The notes under the pieces were generated by a model. It searched no databases and was not told the origin of the DNA. It was given only the letters and a program-made list of their open reading frames with translations. Source: an uncultured Clostridia bacterium (GTDB taxonomy: Bacteria > Bacillota > Clostridia > Christensenellales > Borkfalkiaceae). Taken from it: DNA of 55,699 bases. Below, piece after piece: positions 29,430 through 55,476 of this stretch. The first letter of the stretch is position 1. Each line of letters begins with the position of its first letter. A program made the position numbers and the translations under genes. The stretch is from the NCBI GenBank assembly GCA_947175485.1, contig CAMWMZ010000004.1, positions 1-55,699 on the forward strand, read 5' to 3'.

Positions 29430-29561
29430 ATGTGGGATTATATAACCGAAAGAGTAATTAAGGAAGCGCATTATATAATAGAAACGAACGATACTGTGCG
29501 CGCCGCCGCCGTTCATTTCAACATTTCAAAATCAACCGTACATACGGTGGAGACTTATTAG
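29430..29561 (+). pseudogene. spoIIID: spoIIID, 5' part, interrupted by a 25.8-kb element
   Basis: SpoIIID is the small HTH regulator of the mother cell during sporulation. The ATG at 29430 has GGGAG seven bases upstream. The first 38 residues (MWDYITERVIKEAHYI, ETNDTVRAAAVHF, NISKSTVH) match SpoIIID up to the middle of the HTH. The next five codons (TVETY and stop) belong to the inserted element. The missing 45 residues lie at 55339-55476 in the same frame. A weak SigE-like pair, GCATATAT at 29372 and AATAAATA 13 bases later, sits upstream. As it stands the gene makes only a 43-residue fragment. Confidence 0.9.
29540..29544 (+). other. Left attachment-site core
   Basis: ACATA shared with the right junction. 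The probable crossover dinucleotide is CA at 29541-29542. Sequence to the left is spoIIID; to the right is the element, with the arm CTTATTAGAACG at 29554-29565, which starts 11 bases after the central CA. Confidence 0.8.
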
Positions 29562-29595
29562 AACGTTTTGTATATTTGTTGAAGTAAATGATATA

Positions 29596-29630
29596 AAAAG
29601 GGCGATTTTATGCATAAATCGCCCTTTTTT
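29596..29630 (+). terminator. Terminator at the left end of the element
   Basis: A perfect 12-bp stem (29597-29608 with 29616-29627) around a seven-base loop and six T residues. In the integrated state it ends the truncated spoIIID transcript. In the circular form it would lie nine bases after the stop of the lengthened recombinase gene and so serve as its terminator. Confidence 0.9.
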
Positions 29631-29693
29631 AATGTATAAAATTCCCCGACCGTTCCAATAAATAATGACTCGTTTTTATGGTTTGCAAAAAAC

Positions 29694-29747
29694 TGCTCAC
29701 TTTTTGTCGAAAATATTGCTCACTTATATATAAAAAAGTTGCTCACT
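29694..29747 (+). repeat. Three TGCTCAC(T) direct repeats with 23-bp period
   Basis: TGCTCACT starts at 29694, 29717 and 29740, exactly 23 bases apart each time, and the last copy ends four bases before the -35 box at 29752. The spacing puts the copies at about 2.2 helical turns. It looks like an activator or repressor array for the ATPase gene that follows. Confidence 0.6.
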
Positions 29748-29751
29748 CGTA

Positions 29752-29780
29752 TTGACAGCAGCGTGTTTCTTTGGTATAAT
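29752..29780 (+). promoter_or_regulatory. Consensus promoter of the AAA_14 ATPase gene
   Basis: Perfect TTGACA at 29752-29757 and TATAAT at 29775-29780 with 17 bases between. The start codon is at 29807, preceded by CGGAG. The 23-bp repeats lie immediately upstream. Confidence 0.85.
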
Positions 29781-29806
29781 AATTAAAAAAGATTCGGAGA
29801 TGCGGT

Positions 29807-31096
29807 ATGGGTGTATTAGAGGATAAAAACCAATACAAAAGAAGAGTTATCGATGAAACCATTGAAACCTATTTGGAGGTTAGCGGAGCTATCTGTATAG
29901 AGGGACCGAAATGGTGCGGTAAGACTTGGACTTCGGCATTTCATTCTAACAGCGAGTTTTTGGTTGGAGATCCTTCAAACAATTTTTCAAACAGGCAACT
30001 TGCCGAATTAAATCCTTCTATGATTTTGCAAGGCAATACGCCAAGAATGATTGACGAATGGCAGGAAGTTCCGTCAATATGGGATGCAACAAGAGCCGAA
30101 GTAGATAAAAGGCACAAAAAAGGGCAGATTATATTAACGGGATCGTCCACTCCAAAAACAAAAGGTATTATGCATAGCGGGGCTGGTAGAATCGTAAGAC
30201 TCAGAATGAACACAATGTCTTTATATGAATCCGGCGATTCTTCAGGTAATATCAGCTTAAAAAAATTATGCAACGGCAATCTTGGTATGCAAATGGTGGA
30301 AGAAGCGTCTCTTGTTAAAATAGCGGAATTGATTGTGCGCGGCGGCTTCCCGGAGAATATTGCCGTTGACAGTCAAAAAGCTCATTTAATGCCGAGAGCC
30401 TATATGGACAGTGTTATTGAGGAAAATCTGAATAACCTTGATGACGGAGTTGAATATAACAAGCATAAAGTACAGTTGCTTCTGCGTTCTCTTGCAAGGA
30501 ACGAATCGACAACGGTTTCTGATGCATCATTATTAAAAGACATTATAGACCAAGACAATGAGTCGATGAGTAGAAATACGATTGCGAAATATCTCGAAGC
30601 ATTAAACCGTTTATTCTTGTTTAATAATCAGGCTCCTTTCTCGCCTAATCTGCGTTCGTCTCTTAGAGTTAAGCAAGCAGAAAAAAGACATTTCTTCGAT
30701 CCTGCGATGGCGTGTGCATTATTAAATATTACAGCAGATAAATTGCTTGGAGATTTAAATACTTTCGGTTTCTTATTCGAGGCTTTGGTGGAGCACGACC
30801 TTTCCGTCTATGCGCAGTCATTCGGAGCGAAGCTATTCCATTATCAGGACTATAAAAATAATGAAATAGATGCGGTTATTGAGCTCGAAGACGGCGATTG
30901 GTGTGCATTTGAAATAAAACTCGGTGCAAATAAAATAGATGAGGGTGCGGCAAGCCTTATAAAGACCTGTGCGGATATCGTAGATAATGGAGGTAAAGCA
31001 CCTAAAATTATGTGCGTAATATGCGGTTTATCAAATGCGGCATATCAAAGGCCGGATGGCGTTTATGTCGTTCCTATCACTGCATTAAAAGATTAA
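29807..31096 (+). CDS. AAA_14 / DUF4143 ATP-binding protein
   Basis: A 429-residue P-loop protein. N-terminal AAA_14 domain: Walker A GPKWCGKTWT at about 33-42, Walker B RMIDEWQEVP, sensor region ILTGSSTP. The C-terminal DUF4143 half includes FLFEALVEHDLSVYAQ and the PD-(D/E)xK-like NEIDAVIELEDGDWCAFEIK. The family is common and of unclear role; toxin-antitoxin and defence links have been suggested. It has its own strong promoter and is the first cargo gene of the element. Confidence 0.85.
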   Translation: MGVLEDKNQYKRRVIDETIETYLEVSGAICIEGPKWCGKTWTSAFHSNSEFLVGDPSNNFSNRQLAELNPSMILQGNTPRMIDEWQEVPSIWDATRAEVDKRHKKGQIILTGSSTPKTKGIMHSGAGRIVRLRMNTMSLYESGDSSGNISLKKLCNGNLGMQMVEEASLVKIAELIVRGGFPENIAVDSQKAHLMPRAYMDSVIEENLNNLDDGVEYNKHKVQLLLRSLARNESTTVSDASLLKDIIDQDNESMSRNTIAKYLEALNRLFLFNNQAPFSPNLRSSLRVKQAEKRHFFDPAMACALLNITADKLLGDLNTFGFLFEALVEHDLSVYAQSFGAKLFHYQDYKNNEIDAVIELEDGDWCAFEIKLGANKIDEGAASLIKTCADIVDNGGKAPKIMCVICGLSNAAYQRPDGVYVVPITALKD

Positions 31097-31151
31097 TTAA
31101 TTCGCGCATACTGTATAGATTTAACAAATGAACTTTTAAAGGAGGAATATT

Positions 31152-32273
31152 ATGAGAATTGATATAAATAGTCTTAAAGATATTAAATACATTTCTTTTG
31201 CTCTTGAAAATTGTGAAGGCTTTGATATTGAAGCAAAACATATTCTTGATATACGGTTTGATGAAATCCATAAGGGAGTGGGACCCAACAAAGAAGATGA
31301 AGTTTATGACGGTAGGCTTGTATTGTCGAAGGAGTGCCTTGACTTACTAAGCGATGCTGCTAAGGACGAATTTGAGGACGGGACAACAGGCTTAGACGTT
31401 TACGACATAGATTCTTTGAAACTTCGCAACAGACTCTTAAATTGTTGTGATATCACGCAAGTACATATTTATTTTAATGACGGTTCAAAAGTCTGGTTCT
31501 TTGTGCCTTACGACCCTTTGGAAGAAGAGATGCACGGTTGTGAAATTGACTTATCAAATTGTTCTTCTGCCGAGTTGGATGAGAACGGCAATGTGCTTAT
31601 ATTGTTTGGGAAATCATCGCATTCTTATAAACGAGTAGATAATAACTATGAAGATTTAATATTGGGTTTTACAGATGAAATACCTAATAAAATAACAAAA
31701 CCGTTAAAAGTAAAAATAGAGGAAATTTCAAATACGGAAAGTGATTATCGCTGTCCGAGATTATTTGTTGACGTTCGTGTGCAGGATAAAGCATATCGCA
31801 ATAAATTTTTGAAATTAGTATTTGAAGATATCAAAGATTTATCATTGCAAATAAATCCGGATACGCTACAAGAAACTTTGGAACTAGTGGCTTCGCGAAT
31901 TTCTACGGGTGATATTTTTGTAGAGTTCGGTTTTGAACTGAACTTTTATTGCCAATGTATCAAAACTTATAGCGTTTATTGCAACGAAGAAAACAATGTC
32001 AAAATTAAGAATTGCAGAGATTATAAAAATCTTCTAAATGCGGAATATGAAAAATTAAAAGTCGGAAAAATCACTGTTAAGGATTTTCGTATATGGATAG
32101 AAGGTTGCTCAGAGGACTTGCAATACGACAGGCAAATGCACTTTGTAAAAAATCTGCACGACTGTAATATTGCAAAGCTAATGGACAGTCTTGCAATAAA
32201 GCTTAATTATTACGATGATTATTGTGAATGTAAGGATTTAATAGAAAAAGCAGTTCAAGAAATTTTAATTTAA
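31152..32273 (+). CDS. Protein of unknown function, 373 residues
   Basis: I do not recognise a family. The start is certain, since AAAGGAGG precedes the ATG. The protein is acidic and Cys-containing, has no signal or membrane segments, and looks like a mix of beta-rich (residues about 1-170) and helical (about 260-373) parts. It sits 14 bases before the MATE gene, so the three genes up to the Smr protein form an operon. Confidence 0.7.
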   Translation: MRIDINSLKDIKYISFALENCEGFDIEAKHILDIRFDEIHKGVGPNKEDEVYDGRLVLSKECLDLLSDAAKDEFEDGTTGLDVYDIDSLKLRNRLLNCCDITQVHIYFNDGSKVWFFVPYDPLEEEMHGCEIDLSNCSSAELDENGNVLILFGKSSHSYKRVDNNYEDLILGFTDEIPNKITKPLKVKIEEISNTESDYRCPRLFVDVRVQDKAYRNKFLKLVFEDIKDLSLQINPDTLQETLELVASRISTGDIFVEFGFELNFYCQCIKTYSVYCNEENNVKIKNCRDYKNLLNAEYEKLKVGKITVKDFRIWIEGCSEDLQYDRQMHFVKNLHDCNIAKLMDSLAIKLNYYDDYCECKDLIEKAVQEILI

Positions 32274-32287
32274 ACTAATGGATAAAT

Positions 32288-33607
32288 ATGAAAGACAAGT
32301 TTAAACAACTAAAATATTTTAATTGGCGCCTGTTTGCGTCGCTTTGTGCTCTTGCGCTCATACCCGCAATATACCAGACGGTAAGAACTTTTATTATTTC
32401 ATCCAATGGTGAAAGCGGCGTGTTCGATATCATCGGGCAAATGGAGTGGTTCGATTTAATCGATGAAACATTGAGAGCATTTCTTATAATTCCGCTTTAT
32501 TCGGTTTTAAACAAGTTATTGAAGCACGATGAAGAAAACTTTGCAAAACATACTTTTAAGGTTGGCGTAATCGCATTTGCATTATATACTTTGTTCTCCA
32601 TCGGAGTTCTAATTTACGGCTCTGTATTGGTAGCTGCAATGAATCCTGCGGAAGTTGATCTTGCCGTAACAAATCATTACTTGCAACTAGAAACGGTTGC
32701 TTTTATGATTGGCATTTTACCGAGCTTTTTCAATGTGGTTTTCGTTGTAGTCGGTAAAGATAAAAACGTGTACATATTTTTAGGCGTGCAAACGGTATTG
32801 TCGGTTATTGCAGATTTCTTGTTGATTCCCGCAATGGGAGTTTACGGAATAGCCGCTTCTAATATTATAGTAAACGCATTACTTGCCGTGTCAGGTTTCT
32901 TGGTATTGTTTTTACAAAAGCTTATCAGACCGGCTTGGTATCATAAGAGCGATTTGCAGACATTCAAGGAATGGGGCAAGGTAGGCGTATTTTCCGGAGT
33001 ACAACAATTCATCGACAATTTAATTTATGCCGTAATGATTGGAAAAATGGTAAATATGGTTGCCGAGCAGGGTAACTATTGGATAGCAAACAACTTTATA
33101 TGGGGTTGGATGTTAATTCCTATAACGGCATTGAGTGAAGTTATTCGCCATGACTGTAAAGACGGTTATCTTGCCTTAAAGCAGTTCAATTACTATTTTA
33201 TCGCCGCTTGCGTAGTTTTATTATGGGCAGTCACGATTCCGTTATGGACTCCGTTTTATCGCTATGCGGAAGGGCTTGAAAATGCGCATGAAATATTTCT
33301 TATTACAATTAAGCTTGCACCGTTCTACATCGCCTATGCGGGGTGCGCTATTATTGACAATTATTTCGTCGGTACAGGACACACTATATACAATGCGGTT
33401 AATTCATTGATTATAAATCTTGTCTACTACGGCATTTTCTTTATTCTATATTTGACGAAAGCAATTACCTTTACAATGGACGTTATTATTTTGATGTTCG
33501 GTTTCGGTATGGTAGTGCATTTAGTTGTTTCCATAATAGAAGAACGGCTATTTTTCCGCAAACGTGAATTAATAAGGCTTCAAACGGAGCAAATGAATTT
33601 GGTATGA
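32288..33607 (+). CDS. MATE-family efflux transporter
   Basis: Integral membrane protein, 439 residues, about twelve hydrophobic segments in two halves. It has the MATE pattern of an amphipathic start, then IPLYSVLNKLL, NVVFVVVGKDKNVYIFLGVQTVLSVIADFLL-type helices (fourth to sixth) and GVYGIAASNIIVNALLA. MATE pumps export drugs or organic cations with Na+ or H+ influx. The substrate is unknown. Its stop overlaps the Smr gene. Confidence 0.82.
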   Translation: MKDKFKQLKYFNWRLFASLCALALIPAIYQTVRTFIISSNGESGVFDIIGQMEWFDLIDETLRAFLIIPLYSVLNKLLKHDEENFAKHTFKVGVIAFALYTLFSIGVLIYGSVLVAAMNPAEVDLAVTNHYLQLETVAFMIGILPSFFNVVFVVVGKDKNVYIFLGVQTVLSVIADFLLIPAMGVYGIAASNIIVNALLAVSGFLVLFLQKLIRPAWYHKSDLQTFKEWGKVGVFSGVQQFIDNLIYAVMIGKMVNMVAEQGNYWIANNFIWGWMLIPITALSEVIRHDCKDGYLALKQFNYYFIAACVVLLWAVTIPLWTPFYRYAEGLENAHEIFLITIKLAPFYIAYAGCAIIDNYFVGTGHTIYNAVNSLIINLVYYGIFFILYLTKAITFTMDVIILMFGFGMVVHLVVSIIEERLFFRKRELIRLQTEQMNLV

Positions 33608-33942
33608 AAAGGTTAAAAGAAATCAATTTGGAAGACGGTAAGCCGACAGTTGCTGACGCTCTTATTATATTAAAATCAAGTATTAACAATGCCAAAAGCG
33701 GAAATGTTGGATGTCTTTACATTATCCACGGCTACGGTAGCAGCGGAAAGGGCGGAGCCATCAGAGATAAAGCTCGGCAATGGCTGAATGCGCAGGCAAG
33801 AAACGGCGATGTAAAATGCGTGATAACCGGTGAGGATTTCAATCTCTTCAACTTTAAAGCTTTGGAACTTAAAAATAAGTATAAAGAGTTAGAGCAGCTT
33901 TTAAAAGTCTGCAATCACGGCGTTACAATCGTCGAAATTTAA
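33604..33942 (+). CDS. Smr-domain protein, short stand-alone
   Basis: A 112-residue protein resembling the Smr nuclease domain of MutS2. It has an N-terminal INLEDGKPTVADAL (related to the DLHG region) and the hallmark IHGYGSSGKGGAIRDKARQWL. The start overlaps the MATE stop. Its target in this context is unknown. A strong terminator follows. Confidence 0.75.
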   Translation: MKRLKEINLEDGKPTVADALIILKSSINNAKSGNVGCLYIIHGYGSSGKGGAIRDKARQWLNAQARNGDVKCVITGEDFNLFNFKALELKNKYKELEQLLKVCNHGVTIVEI

Positions 33943-33954
33943 ACATCACATTCA

Positions 33955-34000
33955 AAAAGCGGCTACTTCGGAATCAGTTTCCGGAGTAGCCGCTTTTTTT
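33955..34000 (+). terminator. Terminator after the MATE/Smr operon
   Basis: An 18-bp stem with one G-U pair (33955-33972 with 33980-33997), a short loop and a T-run to 34000. It explains the minus-strand frame ending at 33952. Confidence 0.93.
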
Positions 34001-34229
34001 CGTTCAAGAATTACTAAATGTTTTTCGCCAAGTGTCCAAAAATATGCATAAATTACAATTCTGATGGTCGAAAAATATGCATAAGCCATTAACCGCTGTT
34101 TTTGAGAAGCAAATAACAGTACAAGGAATACAAATAAGATAGTTGACGAAGATGCTGGTTTTGCAGACAACAAGCGCATTTTTCACATTATTGTATGCTG
34201 TTTATTTAACTAAATTACGCAGTAAAATT

Positions 34230-34369
34230 AGGTGTAAAAATTAAAGTTAATTTTCGCTTAAAATTACACCTATTTTTTTACCGTAAAAAATTAGCCCTCT
34301 ATAGCGGCTGGCGTAAAAAATATTTTTTTGGTAAAGAATTGAGCCATTAAGATTAGTTAGCTGGCGCAA
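34230..34369 (+). repeat. Structured element, copy A
   Basis: Stem 1 is AGGTGTAA (34230-34237) with TTACACCT (34264-34271). Stem 2 is AGCC/GGCT at 34293-34309. Stem 3 is TTGAGCCA (34339-34346) with TGGCGCAA (34362-34369), which has one mismatch. Copy B at 34487 aligns along its whole length with the same stem distances. A terminator-like hairpin follows at 34404. The strand is a guess. Confidence 0.6.
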
Positions 34370-34403
34370 TCATTGCTCTAAAATCATTCTTAAACAAGTT
34401 ATC

Positions 34404-34438
34404 GCCACACCCGCTGAATTGAATTCGGCGGGTGTGGC
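34404..34438. repeat. Long hairpin downstream of copy A
   Basis: 17-base arms (34404-34420 and 34422-34438) match at 16 of 17 positions with almost no loop, and the following sequence becomes T-rich only around 34446. It could be a terminator for a transcript of copy A. Confidence 0.6.
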
Positions 34439-34486
34439 ACTTTCATATTTTTAACTGTCTTAAGTGGCTTAAGAAATTCAAAAAAG

Positions 34487-34623
34487 AGGGGTAAAAATGA
34501 TTGTGAATTTTAGTGCAAAATTACCCCTGTTTTTTACTGTAAAAAAAGATCTCCTATAGGGGTTGGCGCAAAAAATAAAATTTAGGCAAAAATTGCGCCA
34601 ATGAGAGCAGTCCGTTGGCGCAA
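34487..34623 (+). repeat. Structured element, copy B
   Basis: Stem 1 is AGGGGTAA (34487-34494) with TTACCCCT (34521-34528), a T-A to G-C change against copy A that keeps pairing. Stem 3 is a perfect TTGCGCCAA (34593-34601) with TTGGCGCAA (34615-34623). Middle hairpin around CCTATAGG. The distance between stem-1 arms is 34 and the stem-3 span is 31 in both copies. Confidence 0.6.
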
Positions 34624-34682
34624 AAATTCTATAAAACAGGGTAAATAATATTGATATCTTTTGTGTAAGTTGAGGACTGCTA

Positions 34683-34723
34683 TTGTACCAGCGATTTTGC
34701 GTTTTGCAAAATCGCTGGTACAA
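34683..34723. repeat. Perfect 18-bp hairpin, five-base loop
   Basis: Arms 34683-34700 and 34706-34723 are perfectly complementary; loop GTTTT. No T-run follows, so it is not an ordinary terminator. It lies between copy B and the HipA-like gene. Confidence 0.75.
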
Positions 34724-34843
34724 TCCATTAATTACTTTAATATTTAATTTGTGTATTCGATTGTTTAATGCTGTTATGTTTAATTCCGCAGTCACATTTA
34801 GGTTTCTTGATTTGTCTATAGAAGAAGAGAGATTTGGAATTAA

Positions 34844-34872
34844 ATGACAAAATGATGTGTTTATGATATAAT
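34844..34872 (+). promoter_or_regulatory. Promoter of the HipA-like gene, probably leaderless
   Basis: ATGACA at 34844-34849 and TATAAT at 34867-34872, 17 bases apart. The ATG of the gene is at 34879, where transcription should begin, and no ribosome site exists, so the mRNA is probably leaderless. Confidence 0.6.
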
Positions 34873-34878
34873 TAAAGT

Positions 34879-35994
34879 ATGGTTTATGAATTAAAACAGT
34901 ATGATAAAACATTAATAGAATTTGAGATTGCGTCTAAACATCTTGAAGGTGTGGAGTGCCGAATTCTTTCGATTAATAAAGACAGTGAATATCTGTTGCC
35001 GTACGGTTTGACCGTTTCCGGAGACGGGATTTTATTATGGCTTAAGCGTAGGGTATTGCCCAGGAACAGAGAGTTTGCCGTACAGATTTGTTTACATTGC
35101 GGTTTATCCGAAAATGATTATCTCGGTATTATAAAGGCGAGTAAGGGTTTATCATTAAATGATTGTTATTGGGTTGTAGAACAGGGTTTTCAAGGCAAGT
35201 TCAAAGAATACAATCTTTACGAAAATTGGTTTGACAGAAATTTATCAGAGATTGCTTTTAACGGAACTGGAAATTGGGCCAATAACGAATTTATACCGTC
35301 GCCTGAATTTACAACAAACGGAACTTTGCGTAAAGTGTGGCGACGGTTAAATAAAAAGATTTATCTATACAAAGGCGGATCGGCAGAACCTTATTCCGAA
35401 TTCTATGCTGCGCAGATAGCAGATAGAATGTGTATACAACATGTATCTTACGGACTTACAAAATGGAAGGATACGCTTTGTTCAACTTGTGAACTGTTTA
35501 CGGATATAAATACTTCATTTGTTCCAATTCATAAATTCGTGAGGAATTGTAATTTATTAACCATAGCAGATTTTCTAAAAAGTCTTGGCAGTCATTTTTA
35601 TGACGACTTTGTGGATATGATTGTCTTTAATGCACTTATCTGTAATACTGACAGGCATTACGGTAATTTCGGTTTACTGGTAGAAAATAAAACGAATAAA
35701 CCAATTAAGTTTGCTCCGATATTTGATAACGGGCAGTCACTTTTTAATTGCGCAACTGAAAAAGATTTATTAAACCTGAATGGATACGCAAATACAAGAT
35801 TTCCTGCTTGTTGCAATGTTACGTTTGGCGATTTGGTAAAAGATTTTATATCAGAACGTCAAATTGAAAAATTACGTAAAATGCAAAACTTTAAATTCAT
35901 AAAACATTCAAAATATAACTTGCAGGTAGATCGACTTGAAAAAATAGAAGAGTATTTGCTGAGTAGAGTGGAAAATCTTTTGAAATTAAGGTAA
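34879..35994 (+). CDS. HipA/CtkA-like serine/threonine kinase
   Basis: A 371-residue protein with the HipA C-terminal fold. ATP-site features are KIYLYKGGS (about 153-161), the catalytic loop VFNALICNTDRHYGNFGLL (about 252-270) and the metal-binding IFDNGQSLF. HipA kinases phosphorylate tRNA synthetases or other targets in toxin-antitoxin pairs; CtkA-type proteins lack a HipB partner. No antitoxin gene is next to this one. It may be a stand-alone defence or dormancy kinase. Confidence 0.7.
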   Translation: MVYELKQYDKTLIEFEIASKHLEGVECRILSINKDSEYLLPYGLTVSGDGILLWLKRRVLPRNREFAVQICLHCGLSENDYLGIIKASKGLSLNDCYWVVEQGFQGKFKEYNLYENWFDRNLSEIAFNGTGNWANNEFIPSPEFTTNGTLRKVWRRLNKKIYLYKGGSAEPYSEFYAAQIADRMCIQHVSYGLTKWKDTLCSTCELFTDINTSFVPIHKFVRNCNLLTIADFLKSLGSHFYDDFVDMIVFNALICNTDRHYGNFGLLVENKTNKPIKFAPIFDNGQSLFNCATEKDLLNLNGYANTRFPACCNVTFGDLVKDFISERQIEKLRKMQNFKFIKHSKYNLQVDRLEKIEEYLLSRVENLLKLR

Positions 35995-36040
35995 ATGTAA
36001 TTATTGTTGCAGTATATTTATAGTTAAATAAATTTTAATG

Positions 36041-36069
36041 TTGATTTAGTTTTAATTTTATGGTATAAT
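36041..36069 (+). promoter_or_regulatory. Promoter of the restriction-type operon
   Basis: TTGATT at 36041-36046 and TATAAT at 36064-36069 with 17 bases between. It precedes the DUF262 gene (ATG 36154, ribosome site AGAGGA). Confidence 0.65.
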
Positions 36070-36153
36070 TAATTATATGGAAAAAATTGGTAAATATTTT
36101 TATTCATATTTATACTTAATTGCCTTTATATGAAATGCTAAAGAGGAATACAA

Positions 36154-38007: not shown

Positions 38008-38019
38008 TTAGGAGATTTA

Positions 38020-40089: not shown

Positions 40090-40249
40090 TAAATTCAATG
40101 CTTCTGAATTGACGGTGGAAAATTTTAAAGATTTTCTATTAGAAATTGAAAATAACAATCTGAAAAATATAGACAGAGAAGATAAAAAGAGTATGGTTGC
40201 TAAAATCATAAGAAGTTATGAGGAGGCAAAAAAGAATGGTAATAAATAG
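40082..40249 (+). CDS. Small protein, 55 residues, between helicase and ATPase
   Basis: ATG at 40082 overlaps the helicase stop by eight bases, and the end overlaps the ATPase start, so it is tightly coupled to both. It starts MTDKFNASELTVENF, is very acidic and Lys-rich, and reads as one or two helices. The frame is free of stops and sits exactly in the gap that would otherwise be empty. The family is not known to me. It may bridge helicase and ATPase. Confidence 0.65.
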   Translation: MTDKFNASELTVENFKDFLLEIENNNLKNIDREDKKSMVAKIIRSYEEAKKNGNK

Positions 40250-42738: not shown

Positions 42739-42755
42739 TAGTTTTCAATAACTTG

Positions 42756-42812
42756 TTGACAATCATAATTAAAAATGCTATACTTACGTATATACGTAAG
42801 TATAGCATTTTT
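42756..42812 (+). promoter_or_regulatory. dndB promoter embedded in a perfect 42-bp palindrome
   Basis: TTGACA at 42756-42761 and TATACT at 42779-42784, 17 bases apart. The palindrome covers 42771-42812: 20-base arms, perfect, around a central TA. It contains the -10 box and the expected start of transcription and is followed by one extra T and the ribosome site GGAG. DndB proteins have been reported to repress dnd transcription in Salmonella, so this is a good candidate operator. Confidence 0.8.
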
Positions 42813-42825
42813 TGGAGTATTAATA

Positions 42826-43872: not shown

Positions 43873-43880
43873 ATTAACTA

Positions 43881-47358: not shown

Positions 47359-47369
47359 AGGCTACAACT

Positions 47370-47771
47370 ATGATAATGAGATTAAGAACATCATCAGACA
47401 CTGAAATGAAATTAATGGAGCTTGATAGAAAAATAAAGCTTTCTTCTAAAGCCGCTATTATGCGTATCGCAATAGCCTGTTCTTTGAAACAAGATAGTGA
47501 TCCGCGTATAGTAAATGGACAAAAAGAATCTTATGATATAAGAGTTCAAGGTGGAATGGATTATCAAAGATTAACGGTTTTTGGGCAAGTAGAAGATTTT
47601 TATCGGTTGTTAATGGTAAATCATCTCGGACATGAGATAACTGAAGATGAATTTTTTCCGGAATTAACTTGCGCACATATAAGACGCGGAGTGGATTATT
47701 TATATTCAGAGTATCGCTATATAGATGATAAGGATAAATTCTTCTCAAAATTAATTAATTTAAGCAGGTAA
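47370..47771 (+). CDS. dndE: DndE, DNA-binding subunit
   Basis: Small basic protein, 133 residues, that binds nicked DNA and joins DndC and DndD. It starts MIMRLRTSSDTEMKLMELD (an alternative start is the Met at position 3), with LSSKAAIMRIAIACSL and AHIRRGVDYLYSEY, the usual DndE pattern. It lies 11 bases after dndD and 4 bases before dndA. Confidence 0.93.
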   Translation: MIMRLRTSSDTEMKLMELDRKIKLSSKAAIMRIAIACSLKQDSDPRIVNGQKESYDIRVQGGMDYQRLTVFGQVEDFYRLLMVNHLGHEITEDEFFPELTCAHIRRGVDYLYSEYRYIDDKDKFFSKLINLSR

Positions 47772-47775
47772 AATT

Positions 47776-48882
47776 ATGCTTTATTTAGACAACGCAGCCA
47801 CAACAAAAGTTAATGAAAAAGTGATGCAGGAAATGCTTGAGGCTAGGTATGCGTATGGAAATTCCGAAGCAAAATTTTATGCTCCGGCAGAAGATGCAAA
47901 AAAATTAATATCATTAGCAAGACAACGTGTCGCCAATATTGTTAATGCTTCACCTGAAGAAGTTATATTTACAAGTGGAGCAACCGAAGCGAATAACTTA
48001 GTATTAAAAGGTTCTTATTGGCAAAACTTTAGGCAAAAAAATAAGATAGTGATTTCTTCAATAGAGCATTCATCTGTTTACGATACATGTAAATTTCTTG
48101 AGAGTATTGGGGCTGAGTTAGCTATTGTTTCAGTTGACAAAACAGGGATGCTTAATCTTGCTGAGTTAGAAGCCTGCTTGGATGAAAAGACTGCACTTGT
48201 TTCTATTATTTATGTCAATAATGAAGTCGGTACAATTCAAAATCTTGATGCAATAGATGAAATATGTAAAAAGCATAAAGTAAAATTACATATTGATGCG
48301 ACTCAAGCAGTAGGTAAAGTAAATATAAATATAAGCAAGTATTCATCATTAAATTATATTACTTTTACAGCGCATAAAATTTATGGGCCCAAAGGAGTGG
48401 GGTGTTTAATTAAACGAAATACAGAAGATAATGATATAATTCCGCTATTGCATGGTGGCGAACAAGAGAATGGTCTTAGAGCAGGAACTCTTGCTAATGA
48501 GCTTATTGTTGGCTTTGGAAAAGCTTGTGAAACTGCGCAATTAGATTTTGATGATAATCATAGAAAGTTAATTGAATATGAAAATATAGTTTTAAAAAAG
48601 CTGCAAAACAAATTTGGTAAACGAATGAAAATTAATAATGATTTTAGCAATCGAATTGCAGGTTTATTAAATATTCAATTGAGCGGTTATAATAATATGG
48701 TTTTACTAAAAGCCATCTCGTCAGATGTTGCTGCTTCAACAGGTAGTGCTTGTGCAGTATCAAGGCCATCACGCGTTTTACAAAATATGGGCTTTGATGA
48801 AACAACTATAAATGAAAGTATACGAATATCAATTTCTCCTTATGAAGAAATATCAAACTTCGATTATTTGGACAAATTGTAA
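47776..48882 (+). CDS. dndA: DndA, cysteine desulfurase
   Basis: PLP enzyme that provides sulfur to DndC. LYLDNAATTKVNEKVM at the start, TSGATEANNLVLKG, EHSSVYDTCKFLES, the PLP lysine in TFTAHKIYGPKGVGC and the active-site loop STGSACAVSRPSRVL. 368 residues, as for the DndA/IscS-like group. Many genomes lack a dedicated dndA or place it apart; here it closes the dnd operon. Confidence 0.94.
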   Translation: MLYLDNAATTKVNEKVMQEMLEARYAYGNSEAKFYAPAEDAKKLISLARQRVANIVNASPEEVIFTSGATEANNLVLKGSYWQNFRQKNKIVISSIEHSSVYDTCKFLESIGAELAIVSVDKTGMLNLAELEACLDEKTALVSIIYVNNEVGTIQNLDAIDEICKKHKVKLHIDATQAVGKVNINISKYSSLNYITFTAHKIYGPKGVGCLIKRNTEDNDIIPLLHGGEQENGLRAGTLANELIVGFGKACETAQLDFDDNHRKLIEYENIVLKKLQNKFGKRMKINNDFSNRIAGLLNIQLSGYNNMVLLKAISSDVAASTGSACAVSRPSRVLQNMGFDETTINESIRISISPYEEISNFDYLDKL

Positions 48883-48909
48883 TTACTTAAGAAATCAAAG
48901 GAACTATTT

Positions 48910-49740
48910 ATGGATTTTACTGATGATAAAAGTGAATTTGACATACGGCAATCAGCATTAGAAGAAATGGCAGCGGAGGCTCTTTTAGTCGAACTATTTA
49001 ATGCTAAGAAAGCTGAAGTATTTGAAAATGTTGTGTTTGAAGGAACGCGCAGGTACTATGTTGAAGATCTTAGTGAGCGTGATTATAGTTTAGAAAACAC
49101 AACTCCATATCAGTTGGATATTCTCGGACATATTATTGAAGAACATGCGTGGGGACTTTTGCTTTGCAGAACAGCAGATTTATTGCTAACGCTTTTTCCA
49201 GATTATAAGGATAAAATCTTATCGTTTCAGTGCCAGTGGACAAAAGCTAAAATGTTCACTCTTGAGCCCAAAACGAATTTTAAGCCGCTACAAAATGGTT
49301 TTTATATTAACTGTAACCATACGGCATTGCACGCTTGTTGGTTTTTGCAGGATATGTTGGACTTCTTTGGAATTGAAAAACCTTTCGTTAGTTTTCTAAT
49401 ACATAGACCTTCAAGTGCTGAGCCAAAGAAAGTAAAAGAGTATGTTGAAAAACGCTTTAAGAGAAACTTTAAAGAGTTTATAAAATCAGAATTTGGTAAG
49501 ACTGATGAGTATGCTGAAAAAGTTGTGAGGATGATCGAAAAATATCTTAATCCGATGCTAATTAAGTTTTCAAAAAGTTATACTAATTTCTTTTTATTCG
49601 ATGATAATGCAATACTGTCAAATTATGTCAAACGAATTCGTGAGATGATGGAATCTGACTTGCGTTACGATGAAAAAGTAAAAAAAGTCTTTAATAAGTA
49701 TTTAGATTACTTAGTTAAATTCTATAAGGAAAATAAATAA
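48910..49740 (+). CDS. Unrecognised protein between dndA and hamA
   Basis: 276 residues, preceded by AAAGGA. It has no motif I can name. The sequence is largely helical, Phe- and Tyr-rich, has CNHTALHACWFLQDML in the middle and a very basic Lys-rich second half, which could bind nucleic acid. No signal or membrane segment. It is 27 bases from dndA and about 50 from hamA, so it may belong to either system or stand alone. Confidence 0.65.
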   Translation: MDFTDDKSEFDIRQSALEEMAAEALLVELFNAKKAEVFENVVFEGTRRYYVEDLSERDYSLENTTPYQLDILGHIIEEHAWGLLLCRTADLLLTLFPDYKDKILSFQCQWTKAKMFTLEPKTNFKPLQNGFYINCNHTALHACWFLQDMLDFFGIEKPFVSFLIHRPSSAEPKKVKEYVEKRFKRNFKEFIKSEFGKTDEYAEKVVRMIEKYLNPMLIKFSKSYTNFFLFDDNAILSNYVKRIREMMESDLRYDEKVKKVFNKYLDYLVKFYKENK

Positions 49741-49793
49741 GAAAGCCAATCATTATACTGATATGAAAAAATTGTAATTTGAAGACGTAACTA

Positions 49794-50753
49794 ATGAAAG
49801 CTACAAATGAATATGGTGTAAGTTCAACTTTAGTTCTAAAAATAAGCGAAGAAGATATTAATACTATTTTTTTGAATACGGATATTACTGAAAATGGAAA
49901 TTTGGAATATTCGTATGGCAATTTTGCTAATGTTTTTTCGGAAAGTATCTTAGAGTATGCGTTTGCTTATTTTGATATACCGAGAAATGAAATTACAAAA
50001 AAACAAAGAGAAGCTGCGCAAAGTCTCATTAAATTACATGAAATTGAAAAATTAAAAAAATATTTTGACGAAAAAATACCTGAAAGCAATTGGGAACCAG
50101 CATTTCTTAATTGGTATCATAAGAAAGGAGTATTTGGAGAAGTAATTTTACATTTAATTTTAAAAGAATTTAAAGATACTATTCCGTTAGTATCAAAGTT
50201 ATATTTTAAAGATTCATTTGCTCTTGAAGCTAAGGGGTTTGATGCGGTTCATGTTAGTAAGGATGGTCAAACCTTATGGTTGGGAGAAATAAAATTTTAC
50301 AAACATTATTCTACAAAAGGTGTTGTAAAAGGCGGTTTGGATGAATTGGTAGCCGACTTGAATAACCATTTTAATATAGATTATCTGCAGGAACAATTTG
50401 TTATTATTTGTCGAGGGTTGGATTCACAATACAATCATCCTCAACGAGAGGAATGGTTGCAAAGATTGAGTAAACCTATTCTTTTGAAAGATGTTTTTCA
50501 ATATATTCGTATACCACTTTTATGTATTTATGAAGATGAAATAGCTAAAGAATATTTAAGTAATTTAGATGAGAGCTTAAAAAATAAAAATATAATAACG
50601 CATACGATAAGTTTACAGGATTATTTTAATAGCAAAAACAAATTTCCGCATAAAGAAAGAGTTCAAACGATTCTAATTTTGATGCCTGTTGAAGCGAAAG
50701 ATAAATTAATAAAATGTATGCTTGAGAAAATATGGCATATGCAAAACATTTAA
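49794..50753 (+). CDS. hamA: HamA (DUF1837), Hachiman nuclease
   Basis: Nuclease subunit of Hachiman anti-phage defence. The PD-(D/E)xK-type core reads FGEVILHLILKE, KLYFKDSFALEAKGFDAVHV and LWLGEIKFY at about 117-180. 319 residues. In Hachiman HamA is held by the helicase HamB and released on DNA damage to cut DNA, from published work as I recall it. The gene is intact, but the hamB next to it is frameshifted, so a free nuclease would need another control. Confidence 0.88.
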   Translation: MKATNEYGVSSTLVLKISEEDINTIFLNTDITENGNLEYSYGNFANVFSESILEYAFAYFDIPRNEITKKQREAAQSLIKLHEIEKLKKYFDEKIPESNWEPAFLNWYHKKGVFGEVILHLILKEFKDTIPLVSKLYFKDSFALEAKGFDAVHVSKDGQTLWLGEIKFYKHYSTKGVVKGGLDELVADLNNHFNIDYLQEQFVIICRGLDSQYNHPQREEWLQRLSKPILLKDVFQYIRIPLLCIYEDEIAKEYLSNLDESLKNKNIITHTISLQDYFNSKNKFPHKERVQTILILMPVEAKDKLIKCMLEKIWHMQNI

Positions 50754-50766
50754 AGGAGGCAGCGGA

Positions 50767-51006
50767 ATGAGCATTTATAAAGCAATTGAAAATATTGATT
50801 TATTAGAGTATTCACAGCAGTTTGCCTTGTTTAGTGATGTGGCTAATGCTATATATTCGAACGAAAAAACTACTCAATTGCAAGGACGAAATTCTTTAAT
50901 TAAAGTTATAGATTTGTGGGGTAAAGTGCCAAATTCAATGAAACTTTTTGGGAAGATCTTATTGAAGCCGTTGGATTTTATCCTTATATTGAAAAATATA
51001 AAATGA
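50767..51006 (+). pseudogene. hamB: hamB fragment 1 (N-terminus), before the first frameshift
   Basis: ATG at 50767 with AAAGGAGG upstream. The first 59 residues (MSIYKAIENIDLLEYSQQ to LWGKVPNSMK) are HamB-like. After 50943 the frame goes astray to a stop at 51006, while the continuation FWEDLIEAVGFYPYIEKYK, typical of HamB, lies in the frame that leads into the helicase. Adding one A to the AAA at 50941 restores the frame, so one base seems lost in a homopolymer. Confidence 0.75.
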
Positions 51007-52499
51007 CCTTAGAGGATTTAGATGCTAGAATTAGATTTAACTATCATAAATCACCTTTTATAGATGGTAAGTTGCTTCATAAGGAGCAAAAAGTTTTATC
51101 GGATTTGCTTTTTGCAAATAGAAACGTTATAGTAAGTGCTCCAACGAGCTTTGGTAAGAGCCTTCTTATAGAAGAAATAGTCGCAAGCAATATTTATAAT
51201 AATATCGTTATAATTCAGCCTACTCTTGCGCTTTTAGACGAAACAAGATTAAAATTAAAAAAATATTCGGATAATTATAGAATTATAGTAAGAACCTCAC
51301 AACAATCTGCAGAAGACAAAGGTAATATATTTTTGTTAACCGCTGAGAGAGTTCTTGAATATCCTAATATGCCTCCCGTACAATTACTCATACTCGATGA
51401 ATTTTATAAATTGAGTAGTAGTAGACAAGATAATAGGGCTAATATTCTTAATATAGCATTTATTCGAATAATGCGAAACAGTAACTGTAAGTTTTATTTG
51501 CTTGGTCCTAATATTGATGAAATTTCAAAAGGGTTCGTGCAAAAGTACAATGCTGTGTTTTATAAAACCGAATATTCACTTGTTTATACTGAAGAAGTAA
51601 ACAAATATAATGATGTAAAGAAAAAGAAAGGGGGTAAAGTTGTACAAGACGATATTTTTAATACTTTAGACGAAATTGATGGTCAGACGCTTATTTTTTG
51701 TTCGTCGCCTACGACTGCAAGAGGTCTAGCGTTTGAATATTGTACATACTTGGAAAAGAAAGGTATATATAAAAATAATAATATTCCGTTGATAGACTGG
51801 ATTACTGAAAATTTAAATGCAGATTGGTCTCTTGTTCATTGCTTAGCAAATGAAATTGGCGTCCATGATGGTTCTATGCCCAAACATATAACAACTTCAA
51901 CTATTAAATATTTCAATGAAAATAAGTTAAAATATTTATTTTGCACGAATACAATTATTGAAGGAGTTAATACTTCAGCAAAAAATGTTATTTATTATGA
52001 CGATCGTATAGGCACAAGGAAGGTTGATTATTTTGACTATGCGAATATACGTGGACGAGCGGGAAGATTAATGGAGCACTGTGTGGGGAAGATAATAAAT
52101 TTGAAGAAACCACCAGAAATCCAAAAAACTGCTGTAGATATTCCTGCCTATGATCAGGATCCGATTTCGGATGAAGTTTTAGTTAATATAGATAGACCAG
52201 ATGTAAAACAAAAAAATTTAAAACGTTATGATAAATTTGAAAGTTTACCAGATGAATTGAAAACGATTCTTAAAAGAAATGCTGTATCCATACAAGATCA
52301 GCTGAAACTTTTGGAAGAGATAAAAGCCAAAATGTTGAATCCGTTTGAGCGAGGAGATATTATTTGGAAAGATTTACATGACAAAAATCTGTATAATCAT
52401 TTGGTGGTGATTTTCAATTTAGTAAAAGATAAATTTATAGAGGGTAACGATAAAAATGTGCTGATTTCAGTTAATTGGATGGCGAAACAAACAAATTGA
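51003..52499 (+). pseudogene. hamB: hamB fragment 2 (helicase core)
   Basis: Superfamily 2 helicase core of Hachiman. Its frame is open from about 50943; the ATG at 51003 is incidental and has no ribosome site. Walker A is SAPTSFGKSLLIEEI, motif II LLILDEFYKL (DEFY in place of DEAH), and motif VI region NIRGRAGRLM. It ends prematurely at MAKQTN because of a CAAA duplication at 52486-52495. With both indels repaired the protein is 748 residues, a sensible HamB length. Confidence 0.8.
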
Positions 52500-53016
52500 T
52501 TATTGCTATGAAAAAAATATCACGAAAACCATAAGAGCAAGAATTGAATATAATTGTAAGGAGTATGCTAAAAAACATGATCCGAGTTATAATGAAGCGA
52601 TATTTTCTTATAGAAAATTTTCATTACTGAATCCAGTAATTGTTAAAGGTTTCGTAGATGAAGCGATTGAAAAATTGTTCAAGTTCCAAAAAAATTGGCT
52701 ACAATATAAAATTCCAAAATGGTTAAATATAGTCGATTCACTTCAAAAGTATTTAGCCAAGCAACTAAAAGTTCCAGCTGGGGATTATTCTTTTGTCTCT
52801 GAATCGATTGAGAATGAATTCATTGAATCAAATATAAGGATTCTGACAGAATATGGAATACCTAGTAGTGCAATATTTAAATTAAAAGAATATTTTGGAA
52901 AACGAATTAAAGATTTATCGGAGGATGAAGTTCTAAATTTTATCAAAATAAATCGTATTGAGGTTAATAAGTATTTGTCTAAATATGAAATTGAATCTCT
53001 AGATAGATGTTTATAA
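52498..53016 (+). pseudogene. hamB: hamB fragment 3 (C-terminus), after the second frameshift
   Basis: The +1 frame continues IDYCYEKNITKTIRARIE through SYRKFSLLNPVIVKGF and LQKYLAKQLKVPAGDYSF to the stop at 53016. There is no start codon with a ribosome site. Removing one of the two tandem CAAA units just upstream joins it exactly to fragment 2 as MAKQIDYCYEK. Confidence 0.75.
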
Positions 53017-53409
53017 GCATATATGGTAGAATATAATTTATGTAATTTCAAAAAGTAACAATGGCACAAAAATGGCATTAAATTGGCGCAAAGATGTCAG
53101 TAAAATGCGTATGAGTTGATAATGAAAATATGATAGACTGATATTGTCGGAAAGTGGGACTTGAAAGAGTTCCGTTTTTTTTTGTTGGCAAAAATCAGTA
53201 TAGGGGAGAGGTGATTAGGGATGTAGATGTAAGCTTGATGATTGAGAAAATTTATGCTTATACCAGACATTGACATTCGGCTTAATGCCGCAGTCATAAC
53301 ATTGGACAACTTTGAAGAGATGCTTTCAGGCTAAAATCAGTATTACAGAGCGGATTTTAAAAATTTTTTTAACTTTTTTCAAAAAAGTTTTGTAAGACTG
53401 ATTCTGCTC
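53017..53409. other. Gene-free stretch between hamB and the recombinase operon
   Basis: No full gene. A short frame at 53254-53333 reads MLIPDIDIRLNAAVITLDNF and could be the relic of a larger gene. An AT-rich imperfect inverted repeat (TTAACTTTTTTC and AAAAAAGTTTTG) is near 53370. Confidence 0.4.
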
Positions 53410-53437
53410 TTGACAGATGAAAATTATGATGTAAAAT
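53410..53437 (+). promoter_or_regulatory. Promoter of the recombinase operon
   Basis: TTGACA at 53410-53415 and TAAAAT at 53432-53437 with a 16-base spacer. It is followed by about 180 bases of leader with stray ribosome-site-like GGGGAGG but no matching open frame, then the small gene and the recombinase. Confidence 0.55.
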
Positions 53438-53618
53438 AACGGGGAGGTTAGAAAATTTTATAGTTGAAGCACACAGGAAATTAAATTTTTCACAGTATCA
53501 GACAAATGAAGAAACGTAAAATGTCGTAAATTAAGAGGTGAAAAAACAAAATGAAATAACTTGTAAAAATAATGAGAAAGAGAGTGCTATTTGTCGAAAC
53601 GAGGGCGTAAGTTATTGT

Positions 53619-53798
53619 ATGGACAAGCCCAAACTTAACTTTCGTTTTCACAACCCGAATAGCGAAGAGAACTTTGTACGTTTGCTCATATCGGTATGTA
53701 TGGAAACGTGCAGAGTGAAAGCGGACGAGGCAATCTCGGCAGATTTATTAAATAAACAGGAAGAAATGGCGGCAACCGACGCCGATAAAAAGGAGTAA
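53619..53798 (+). CDS. Small protein upstream of the serine recombinase
   Basis: About 59 residues from the ATG at 53619 (the frame is open from a GTG at 53538, with poor ribosome sites for both). KPKLNFRFHNPNSEENFVRL at the start is a motif I have seen in small genes beside recombinases of Bacillota elements. The stop lies six bases before the recombinase start. A recombination directionality factor is one possible role; there is no direct evidence. Confidence 0.6.
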   Translation: MDKPKLNFRFHNPNSEENFVRLLISVCMETCRVKADEAISADLLNKQEEMAATDADKKE

Positions 53799-53804
53799 CA
53801 TAGG

Positions 53805-55340
53805 ATGAGGATAGCAGCTTACTGTCGTGTATCAACGGACAAAGCGGACCAGCTCAACAGCTTGGAAGCGCAGAAAAAATTCTTTATGGAATATGTAAAG
53901 CGCACGGGGAACACACTCGTGCGCTTATATGCCGATGAGGGAATTTCGGGGACGAAGGTTAAAAAACGCAAACAGTTCCTGCAGATGATGGCTGATGCGG
54001 AGACGGGGCTCTTCGAGCACGTTGTGGTAAAGGACATTTCTCGGTTTGCCCGCAACACCGTCGATTTATTGCAGAATATCAGAACGCTGAAACAGTTGGG
54101 TATCGAAACAGAATTCTTGACCGCCAACATGACGAGTATGGGCAACAGCGAATTCGTCCTGACTATCTTCGGCGCGCTTGCGCAGGAAGAGAGCGCAAAT
54201 ACCTCAAAGCGCATTAAGTTCGGCAAAAAGATTAATGCTGAAAAGGGCAGAATACCCAATTTTGTTTACGGTTACGACAAAACTCCCGGCGACGTTTTTA
54301 ACCTTAATATCAACGAGAAAGAAGCCCAAGTTGTCCGCCGCATATTTCGTATGTACACGGAAGAGAGCTACGGCGCCGCAAAGATAGGACAGATCCTAAA
54401 CGGTGAAAATATCAAGACAAAGTTCGGAAACAACTGGACGCAGGAGGCAGTCTGCCGTATTCTCACGAACGAAATTTATATGGGCAAGGTTATCAACGGC
54501 AAAGTGGAGGTTGCGGACTTTCTTACCGGTATTCGCAGAAACAAAAGCGAAGAGGAATGGTGCGTTGTAGAGAAACCCGAGCTCGCTCTCATATCTAAGG
54601 AACTGTTTGAACACACGCAGGAGATAATGGCAAGCCGAAGCGAAAAATATAAGACGTCCCAAAAGCGGACAAGTAACAGGCATTTATTCTCAACGCTCAT
54701 CGTCTGTAAAGATTGCGGCTGGTCGTTCCGCCAGATTACAAGGACTTATCAGAACACTTACGTTCGCTGGGTTTGCTCTGGTAGGAACGGGCGGGGAGCC
54801 AAGACCTGCTGTAATGCTACAAGCATTGGCGAAGACGTTTTAATCAAGAAGTTGAACGAGTACTTCCGCAACTACATAAAAAACAAAGATAAGATAATTG
54901 AGTATGTCGTCGAACAATTCCATAAAGAATATAAGGAAGAGGACGTCAACTTACAACAGGAAAAAGAGCTGACAGCCGAATACGAGAAGCTGAAAGCGTT
55001 CCGTGTAAAATATATGGATATGTTTGCAGCCGAGATGATAAGCAAGGAAGAATTTAACCAACATGTCGGCGACAGCAAACAGAGAATGGAAAAGATTGAG
55101 AGCGAATTAAAACTCGTCAAGCACAGGATTTCCAAAACCGGAGAGCTGAAAAGCATTCTTGAAAAAACATTTAAAACGATAGAAGATATTATAGACACGG
55201 GCGAAATGACAAACGGTCAGCTTCGGAAAATCATAGAGAAAATCGAGGTTGATCACGAGGGGAACGTAGATATTTATATGAAATTGACCGAGAGGCTAAA
55301 CCTTGCCCGTACCGTTCCAATAAGCGGGTGTCTGACATAA
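53805..55340 (+). CDS. Large serine recombinase (integrase/excisionase of the element)
   Basis: A 511-residue recombinase. Resolvase domain with RIAAYCRVSTD (nucleophile Ser10), VKDISRFARNTVDLL and GALAQEESANTSKRI; Recombinase domain with FVYGYDKTPG, ILNGENIKTKFGNNWT and RILTNEIYMGK; a zinc ribbon with CKDCGWSF and KTCCNA; then a long coiled coil (about 370-460). AAGGAG precedes the ATG. The stop codon itself spans the attachment core and one chromosomal base. In the excised circle the frame would read on for 14 more codons (YGGDLLERFVYLLK) to a stop at 29585-29587. Confidence 0.95.
   Translation: MRIAAYCRVSTDKADQLNSLEAQKKFFMEYVKRTGNTLVRLYADEGISGTKVKKRKQFLQMMADAETGLFEHVVVKDISRFARNTVDLLQNIRTLKQLGIETEFLTANMTSMGNSEFVLTIFGALAQEESANTSKRIKFGKKINAEKGRIPNFVYGYDKTPGDVFNLNINEKEAQVVRRIFRMYTEESYGAAKIGQILNGENIKTKFGNNWTQEAVCRILTNEIYMGKVINGKVEVADFLTGIRRNKSEEEWCVVEKPELALISKELFEHTQEIMASRSEKYKTSQKRTSNRHLFSTLIVCKDCGWSFRQITRTYQNTYVRWVCSGRNGRGAKTCCNATSIGEDVLIKKLNEYFRNYIKNKDKIIEYVVEQFHKEYKEEDVNLQQEKELTAEYEKLKAFRVKYMDMFAAEMISKEEFNQHVGDSKQRMEKIESELKLVKHRISKTGELKSILEKTFKTIEDIIDTGEMTNGQLRKIIEKIEVDHEGNVDIYMKLTERLNLARTVPISGCLT
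55335..55339 (+). other. Right attachment-site core
   Basis: ACATA, identical to 29540-29544. Central CA at 55336-55337. On the element side the arm CGTTCCAATAAG (55313-55324) ends 11 bases before the CA. On the host side spoIIID resumes. Confidence 0.8.
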
Positions 55341-55476
55341 AGACGTTACGGAAAGGCTTAAGAGTATAGATAAGGAGCTTTTCGAGATGGTGCGTAAAGT
55401 GTTGGATACTAATCTTTCGGAAAGACATATCCGCGGAGGAATGGCGACGAAGAAGAAGTATCAGCACGGCGAATGA
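55336..55476 (+). pseudogene. spoIIID: spoIIID, 3' part, separated from its start by the element
   Basis: From the CAT (His38) at 55336 the frame gives KDVTERLKSIDKELFEMV, then RKVLDTNLSERHIRGGMATK and ends KKYQHGE. This is the second half of SpoIIID, with the very characteristic RH(I/L)RGG-ATK ending. It has no start codon of its own. It is in the correct phase with the fragment at 29430 when the element is removed, giving 83 residues. Confidence 0.92.

Follow-up and report, generated by a model that had tools for sequence, protein, structure and literature searches.

A defence-gene element inserted in the sporulation gene spoIIID of an uncultured Clostridia bacterium, and its relatives

The window analysed here, a stretch of 55,699 nucleotides from an uncultured Clostridia bacterium of the family Borkfalkiaceae (GenBank assembly GCA_947175485.1, contig CAMWMZ010000004.1), contains a spoIIID gene split in two by an element that encodes a large serine recombinase (LSR) and defence genes. 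The 5' part of spoIIID starts with the ATG at 29430 and the 3' part closes with the stop codon at 55476; ACATA, present at 29540-29544 and 55335-55339, forms the sole 5 bases common to both ends. In a profile search of the genome with TIGR02844, the two halves scored 42.5 and 59.4 bits, and joining the flanks at this core yielded an 83-amino acid SpoIIID with a score of 113.4 bits, compared with the curated cut-off of 111.5. A preliminary description of this DNA had proposed that spoIIID is split at ACATA with a frame uninterrupted across the seam and that excision can repair the gene exactly, and the computed in-frame join bears out both statements. It had also pointed to a second intact copy as contrary evidence; the genome (1.6 Mb in 88 contigs, completeness 96.9%) gave no TIGR02844 match beyond the two halves, although a copy may lie in the missing part. 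The insertion belongs among the intervening elements of sporulation genes, as spoIIID is split and precise excision would rebuild its frame, and it falls outside the skin (sigK) elements, as its target is spoIIID and the sigK-like gene of the same genome is full length.

The explanation that we favour, and consider quite probable, is an integrated mobile defence island with spoIIID as its attB, whose excision in the mother cell by the LSR and a small protein rebuilds spoIIID. According to this scheme, the LSR would use spoIIID around the codons of His38 and Lys39 as attB, and SpoIIID could not be made while the island is integrated. In the sporulating mother cell, the LSR and the protein of a small open reading frame (ORF), a candidate recombination directionality factor (RDF), would recombine attL with attR, which would free the island as a circle and rebuild spoIIID exactly, and the forespore would retain the island. 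Since SpoIIID would be absent before excision, the trigger would have to precede it and would most simply be sigma E. That excision happens, when and in which cell it does so, and that the small ORF acts as the RDF are inferred.

Recombinase, att sites and circle joint

The LSR is encoded by the element itself, possesses Resolvase, Recombinase and zinc-ribbon domains, adjoins the att site at the right end and terminates in the att core; these domains and the att cores agree with the site-specific serine recombinase element proposed earlier. For comparison, 21 distinct elements were parsed from core to core, the window included, with lengths of 4.1-34.9 kb; one genome with both halves (G321) and three loci with C-terminal halves of spoIIID (C-halves; L128, L156 and L157), whose cores the script did not recognise, lie outside this set. 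Across the circle joint, the LSR frame gains 13-18 codons relative to the integrated form in 20 of the 21 elements, whereas the integrated LSR is closed by a TAA built from the core and spoIIID. The exception is Pseudoflavonifractor phocaeensis, where spoIIID has CACAAG and the integrated LSR reads on for 41 codons. As attP lies within the LSR gene, integration also trims the LSR; three phage-like loci presented below (L228, L229 and L231) encode the long form of 525 amino acids.

The best dyad centre of the circle joint was located at the same CA of ACATA in all 21 elements, and the pairing around it exceeded the best of 40 shuffles in 17 of them, the window being among the other four. Given the common ancestry of the elements, this constant centre represents one conserved design and not 21 independent proofs.

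Recurrence of the split in Clostridia

Within Borkfalkiaceae, a SpoIIID match was obtained in 270 of 301 genomes, and the gene was split in 16, both counts including the genome of the window. A split was recognised by a core-ended half with an element arm (12 genomes), a recombinase beside the C-half (9 genomes), or both (5 genomes). These 16 consist of the window's genome and 15 of 21 genomes with weak matches that were examined more closely; left out were three genomes cut by contig ends (G099, G261 and G151), one with a full-length but divergent gene (G180), and two whose halves stop at the core without an arm (G159 and G004).

A second pattern emerged among 16 re-searched family genomes with multiple matches, nine of which carry a full-length spoIIID together with an extra 5' half that has the same left-arm type and is 92-99% identical to the 5' part of the full gene in the same genome. 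No recombinase was found between the full gene and the extra half in G122, G240, G130 and G075, each read on one contig (G075 is outside the nine genomes with a readable arm). In G064, whose gene is whole, a 24-residue recombinase remnant adjoins a second version of the spoIIID 5' region (359 bp, 93% identity). The simplest reading is that the extra 5' halves would reflect repair after loss of the recombinase. In the loci of these five genomes (L079 in G064, L080 in G122, L081 in G240, L082 in G130 and L083 in G075), the full spoIIID lies behind an island and the second 5' copy at the island's left end, an arrangement that is apparently the scar of a repaired split. Separately, three spoIIID 5' halves were observed on one contig of another genome (L224, G314:C52:72300-86300), which looks like the outcome of successive insertions by several elements.

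In a class sample of 393 genomes with a completeness of at least 90%, spoIIID was matched in 285, and the best E-value was above 1e-22 in 19. Three of these 19 were known from the family set (G000, G009 and G042), 15 were re-searched, and one (G430, 5.9e-22) remained outside the 15. The re-search revealed a C-half in 14 genomes, G402 having the N-part alone with an unclear arm, and a recombinase (33-64% identity) in 11. It lies directly upstream of the C-half in nine genomes (as a fragment at a contig end in G531); in G372 the distance is 2.2 kb, and in G441 it occupies the opposite end of the element. In the remaining three genomes with a C-half, the contig stops within about 100 bases of the core. 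The one-contig genome G441 holds a 65-kb element in spoIIID (L286-L288, G441:C1:3646002-3711005), whose left end carries the recombinase in opposite orientation. From its sequence motifs, we take this element, of which about 5.5 kb were left unread, to be of conjugative type with a Cas9-like gene.

The same association was observed starting from the recombinase. Among the best 80 of 370 homologues confirmed in the genome collection, 76 have the spoIIID C-half directly downstream (75 by profile and L154 by reading the contig end), one stops at the core (L167), and three are followed by something else (L110, L124 and L142); L102, included in the 80, belongs to G158 and is the contig from which a query sequence was also taken. 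Both spoIIID halves and no full-length copy were identified in 19 of 21 named genomes picked for carrying the recombinase, with both halves on one contig in 16. Identical match coordinates in G686 and G303 (Blautia schinkii) indicate that this genome is present in both the class set and the named set.

Related recombinases were found at six IMG/VR loci. At four of them (L228-L231), the recombinase, 58-61% identical, is followed by a joined attP with no spoIIID, and the identity of L229-L231 around the joint reduces these four to 2 distinct sequences. PHROGs matches included DNA polymerase, DNA ligase and tail fibre in L228 and DNA polymerase and NrdD in L231, and the small ORF was present in the three loci scanned (L228, L229 and L231). 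The joined attP shows the non-integrated form for these relatives, and not for the element of the window.

By these distributions, spoIIID is a recurrent integration site in Clostridia for phage-like, conjugative-type and defence elements. The split reported in the preliminary description stands, and it is one case of many, which that description had not foreseen. An assembly or binning artefact has next to no probability as an explanation: the sequence comes from a draft metagenome-assembled genome (MAG) in 88 contigs, but it matches isolate genomes in its att arms, in its dyad centre and in the orientation of the recombinase. Chance or misassembly is made very unlikely by the split of the same codon, with similar arms on either side, in numerous other genomes, isolates included, and by the dyad centre shared by all parsed elements; this recurrence contradicts the misassembly that had been named as a possible refutation. 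Vertical inheritance of the elements is not favoured: between Pseudoflavonifractor P3106 and Angelakisella, recombinase identity reaches 97% and SpoIIID identity 64%, and the overall rank correlation is weak (0.38).

Small ORF, promoter signals and sporulation of the hosts

All 21 parsed elements, five of which had served as profile seeds, carry the small ORF 5' of the recombinase and in the same orientation. In a first pattern search of 70 loci, 17 had it no more than 900 bp from the recombinase, the low adjacency being explained by cargo that often lies between the two; a profile built from those 17 loci detected it within 6 kb of the recombinase in 53 of the 70. No family match was found for the members scanned.

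Promoters were compared in the window and in the loci of recombinase homologues from the genome collection, using the sigma-E consensus as a KMATATT-type -35 with up to one mismatch, 13-15 bases 5' of CATA. Among 39 non-redundant small ORFs, 19 are preceded by such a site, against a mean of 0.4 and a maximum of 2 in shuffled sequences, and it occurs with one mismatch before the small ORF of the phage-like loci L228, L229 and L231. The same test recovered 9 of 20 spoIVA and 27 of 76 spoIIID genes, which served as controls since both are sigma-E targets in C. difficile (PMC5025042; this and the other papers cited were used in excerpt). Sigma-E control of the recombinase itself was rejected as unsupported: none of 51 non-redundant upstream regions had a site with up to one mismatch, and 7 had one with up to two (shuffled mean 5.4). 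A sigma-A-like pattern was observed 5' of the recombinase in 17 of the 51 regions (shuffled mean 1.3) and an att-arm-like motif in 33. The motif, GTAAC(A/G)GAA, stands upstream of the recombinase in many of the loci L099-L177, often just 3' of a TATAAT-like -10; it is a possible operator for the recombinase, and its presence suggests that the recombinase may control itself.

Several observations weigh against mother-cell excision. The MAG presents the integrated state only, and no excision product of the element was seen. In the window and in the relative G158, no sigma-E-like site was found within 260 bp of the small ORF, which is the main weakness for this element. Of the 39 non-redundant small ORFs, 20 have no site with up to one mismatch, the family members G224, G009 and G292 have a sigma-E-like site only with 2 mismatches, and the small ORF of G168 was not found in about 1.9 kb upstream of the recombinase. 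The dyad pairing of the window's circle joint (15/29) does not exceed the highest value among 40 shuffles. Among the named genomes, R. torques (G305) shows the C-half only, and Christensenella (G317) has the recombinase without any spoIIID. Finally, the ratio of non-synonymous to synonymous substitution (dN/dS) in the halves mostly reflects the time before insertion, and spore formation by the uncultured host is unproven. In the case of Christensenella sp. Marseille-P2438 (L110), the recombinase belongs to the same family and the genome has no spoIIID or spoIVA match; this recombinase probably uses another site, and the host is probably a non-sporulator.

Part of this evidence would suit an ordinary mobile element that has spoIIID as its attB by chance and is excised rarely or under stress, its carriers being non-sporulating until the element is lost. 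We regard this as an unlikely alternative. It is consistent with the horizontal spread seen in Pseudoflavonifractor P3106 and Angelakisella, the patchiness of splits within genera, the joined attP on phage-like contigs, the sigma-A-like pattern before the recombinase and the missing sigma-E-like site in the window. Against it stand the sigma-E-like promoter before the small ORF in many relatives, both distinct phage-like contigs included, the retention of Spo0A and SpoIVA by most of the split hosts tested, and G064, whose recombinase remnant adjoins a second spoIIID 5' copy beside a whole gene.

Sporulation genes were searched in 31 genomes, comprising 11 split family genomes (with that of the window), 4 with a restored and 2 with an intact gene, 13 named genomes with the split, and Christensenella. 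The window's genome encodes Spo0A (235.6 bits, cut-off 200), SpoIVA (582.5 bits, cut-off 459.9) and a full-length sigK-like gene whose score of 298.0 bits is just under the cut-off of 298.65. SpoIVA was found in 30 of the 31 genomes, over the cut-off in 27; the matches in G224 and G130 are partial, and G317 has none. Spo0A-type matches occurred in all 31 genomes, 28 over the cut-off (those under it being G268, with an intact spoIIID, G320 and G317), and SigK-type matches likewise in all 31, 10 over the cut-off. Because most of the 14 control genomes also match (Spo0A-type in 12, SigK-type in 11, at most one over the cut-off), only Spo0A and SigK matches near or over the cut-off are counted here.

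Median dN/dS was 0.19 for C-halves, 0.16 for N-halves and 0.18 for the same C-half codons of intact genes, with most pairs saturated; as proof of selection after insertion this test was set aside as too weak, its values being consistent with such selection. No stop codon was found in any of 33 C-halves (window counted twice).

The opposite possibility, that the lineage is losing sporulation and that the split is a permanent inactivation, appears highly improbable. The small genome of 1.6 Mb and the 31 of 301 family genomes without a spoIIID match, many of them incomplete, would agree with it; the Spo0A and SpoIVA matches over their cut-offs, the full-length sigK-like gene, the open frames of both halves and of the recombinase and, as a weak test, the similar dN/dS of split halves (0.16-0.19) and intact genes (0.18) argue against it. 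The preliminary description had posed sporulation that depends on excision and loss of sporulation as its two alternatives, of which the former is the better supported by Spo0A, SpoIVA, the full-length sigK-like gene and the stop-free C-halves, and the latter is disfavoured.

Two further rearranged sporulation genes were encountered. In Pseudoflavonifractor sp. Marseille-P3106 (G306), spoIVA appears as two overlapping parts 252 kb apart (C20:236830-237279 and 489488-490534). In Flavonifractor sp. An82 (G310), where spoIIID is also split, the sigK-like gene lies in two parts 17 kb apart (C1:242257-242397 and 259716-260159), perhaps representing two rearrangements in one mother-cell cascade.

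Known intervening elements, wider reading and cargo

The split targets known from the excerpts consulted are sigK, spsM, spoVFB, spoVR, gerE and yabG, and spoIIID is not named in them (PMC5025042, PMC4191935, PMC5595907, PMC10747680). No report of an interrupted spoIIID was found in the literature searched, which consisted mainly of open papers, with most subscription papers and all bioRxiv preprints outside its range; within this scope, the earlier statement that no such case had been described holds.

In the C. difficile skin element, the recombinase CD1231 is expressed from a sigma-A promoter and the RDF CD1234 (72 amino acids) is under sigma E and SpoIIID (PMC5025042). The spoIIID elements resemble it as serine recombinase elements located inside a mother-cell regulatory gene that exact repair would restore, with a sigma-A-like recombinase promoter and, in many relatives, a small ORF with a sigma-E-like promoter. 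They differ from it in target and cargo, and the recombinases and small proteins are likened by description, not by sequence; moreover, the dependence of CD1234 on SpoIIID would be impossible for elements that interrupt spoIIID. The gin element in gerE of Bacillus cereus ATCC10987 (28.6 kb, GirC, GirX, 9-bp core CATCTCAAA) is likewise a non-phage island of similar size that splits a small DNA-binding regulator, with a serine recombinase, a small RDF (here a candidate) and a short common core with inverted repeats (PMC5595907). In contrast to the elements described here, it occupies another gene with another core and is named for a few Bacillus strains only, and its girC is itself expressed during sporulation (PMC5595907). 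The SP-beta prophage in spsM (SprA/SprB), for which mother-cell expression of sprB was shown, and yin in yabG, for which a SigK-type promoter was proposed, share with the present relatives a phage or phage-like nature and an RDF (here a candidate) with a sigma-E/K-like promoter (PMC4191935, PMC10747680). Their targets are different, and the splits of spoIIID extend from phage-like contigs over conjugative-type elements to defence islands in several Clostridia families.

Taken jointly, the data lead us to lean, by a small degree, towards a broader reading in which spoIIID would be a docking site across gut Clostridia for one module, an LSR with a sigma-E-driven small RDF, shared by phages, conjugative-type elements and defence islands. 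A single crossover would toggle both SpoIIID and the 13-18-residue tail of the LSR, the tail being restored because attP lies within the LSR gene and spoIIID provides the stop of the integrated form. Only a signal that precedes SpoIIID, such as sigma E, could start this rearrangement in sporulation, each mother cell would discard the island, and lineages that lose the LSR would have to remake the 5' end, to which the scars in nine genomes point. If true, spoIIID, which encodes an early mother-cell regulator, would become one of the few sporulation genes that DNA excision rebuilds, and such a switch would be common in gut Clostridia instead of an oddity confined to some strains of Bacillus and Clostridium. 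It would also suggest how defence islands and phages can occupy a spore gene at little cost. Predictions of sporulation from genomes might score split hosts as lacking spoIIID, and cultured strains with a split spoIIID exist in which the scheme is testable.

The features of the element and its flanks are listed in Table 1. The annotated ORFs of the window belong to defence, transport or unknown categories; no search aimed at virion genes was made. The defence cargo announced in the preliminary description is confirmed by the Dnd/Pbe and Hachiman-like genes.

Table 1. Features of the spoIIID element and its flanks in the window
Feature	Positions	Strand	Remarks
spoIIID 5' part with core, attL	29430..29544	+	Residues 1-38, codons 29430-29543; TIGR02844 positions 2-38
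Whole element	29540..55334	+	25,795 bp core to core; GC 33.5% vs 43.5% in left flank
attL core ACATA	29540..29544	+	Putative crossover dinucleotide CA
Left element arm	29545..29587	+	Across circle joint, 14 more LSR residues (YGGDLLERFVYLLK), then stop
AAA_14/DUF4143 ATPase	29807..31096	+	Pfam
MATE family transporter	32288..33607	+	NCBIfam NF045539, 353.2 bits, cut-off 350
Smr-domain protein	33604..33942	+	Pfam
HipA_C-domain protein	34879..35994	+	Pfam, 30.8 bits, cut-off 30.5
GmrSD_N-domain protein	36154..38007	+	Pfam
PbeA-like / Dnd restriction helicase	38020..40089	+	PADLOC E 6.3e-173; TIGR04095 below cut-off
PbeC-like SMC-type ATPase	40218..42224	+	PADLOC E 7.5e-61
DndB	42775..43872	+	TIGR03233 over cut-off
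DndC	43881..45488	+	TIGR03183 over cut-off
DndD	45478..47358	+	TIGR03185 over cut-off
DndE-like	47370..47771	+	TIGR03184 E 1.1e-9, below cut-off
DndA-like cysteine desulfurase	47776..48882	+	TIGR03235 best match, below cut-off
HamA-like (Hachiman)	49794..50753	+	PADLOC E 1.5e-75
HamB-like helicase	51003..53016	+	Two pieces, 51003-52499 and 52675-53016; PADLOC, same family, in order
Small ORF (MDKPKLNFRFHNPN... from 53619), candidate RDF	53538..53798	+	Family in 21/21 parsed elements
LSR, integrated form of 511 aa	53805..55340	+	Resolvase, Recombinase, Zn_ribbon_recom
attR core with spoIIID 3' part	55335..55476	+	Residues 39-83; TIGR02844 36-79
Downstream gene start (GIDVGSTTVKA...)	55604..55699	+	Presumably activase-like; similar start 3' of spoIIID in several relatives

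A cargo function common to the elements was sought and rejected, as the largest blastp cluster covered at most 5 of the 21 parsed elements, apart from the small ORF and reverse-strand frames of the recombinase. Because the HamB-like helicase is in two pieces, the window's copy of the Hachiman-like pair may lack activity, and the GmrSD_N-domain protein is perhaps part of a restriction arm.

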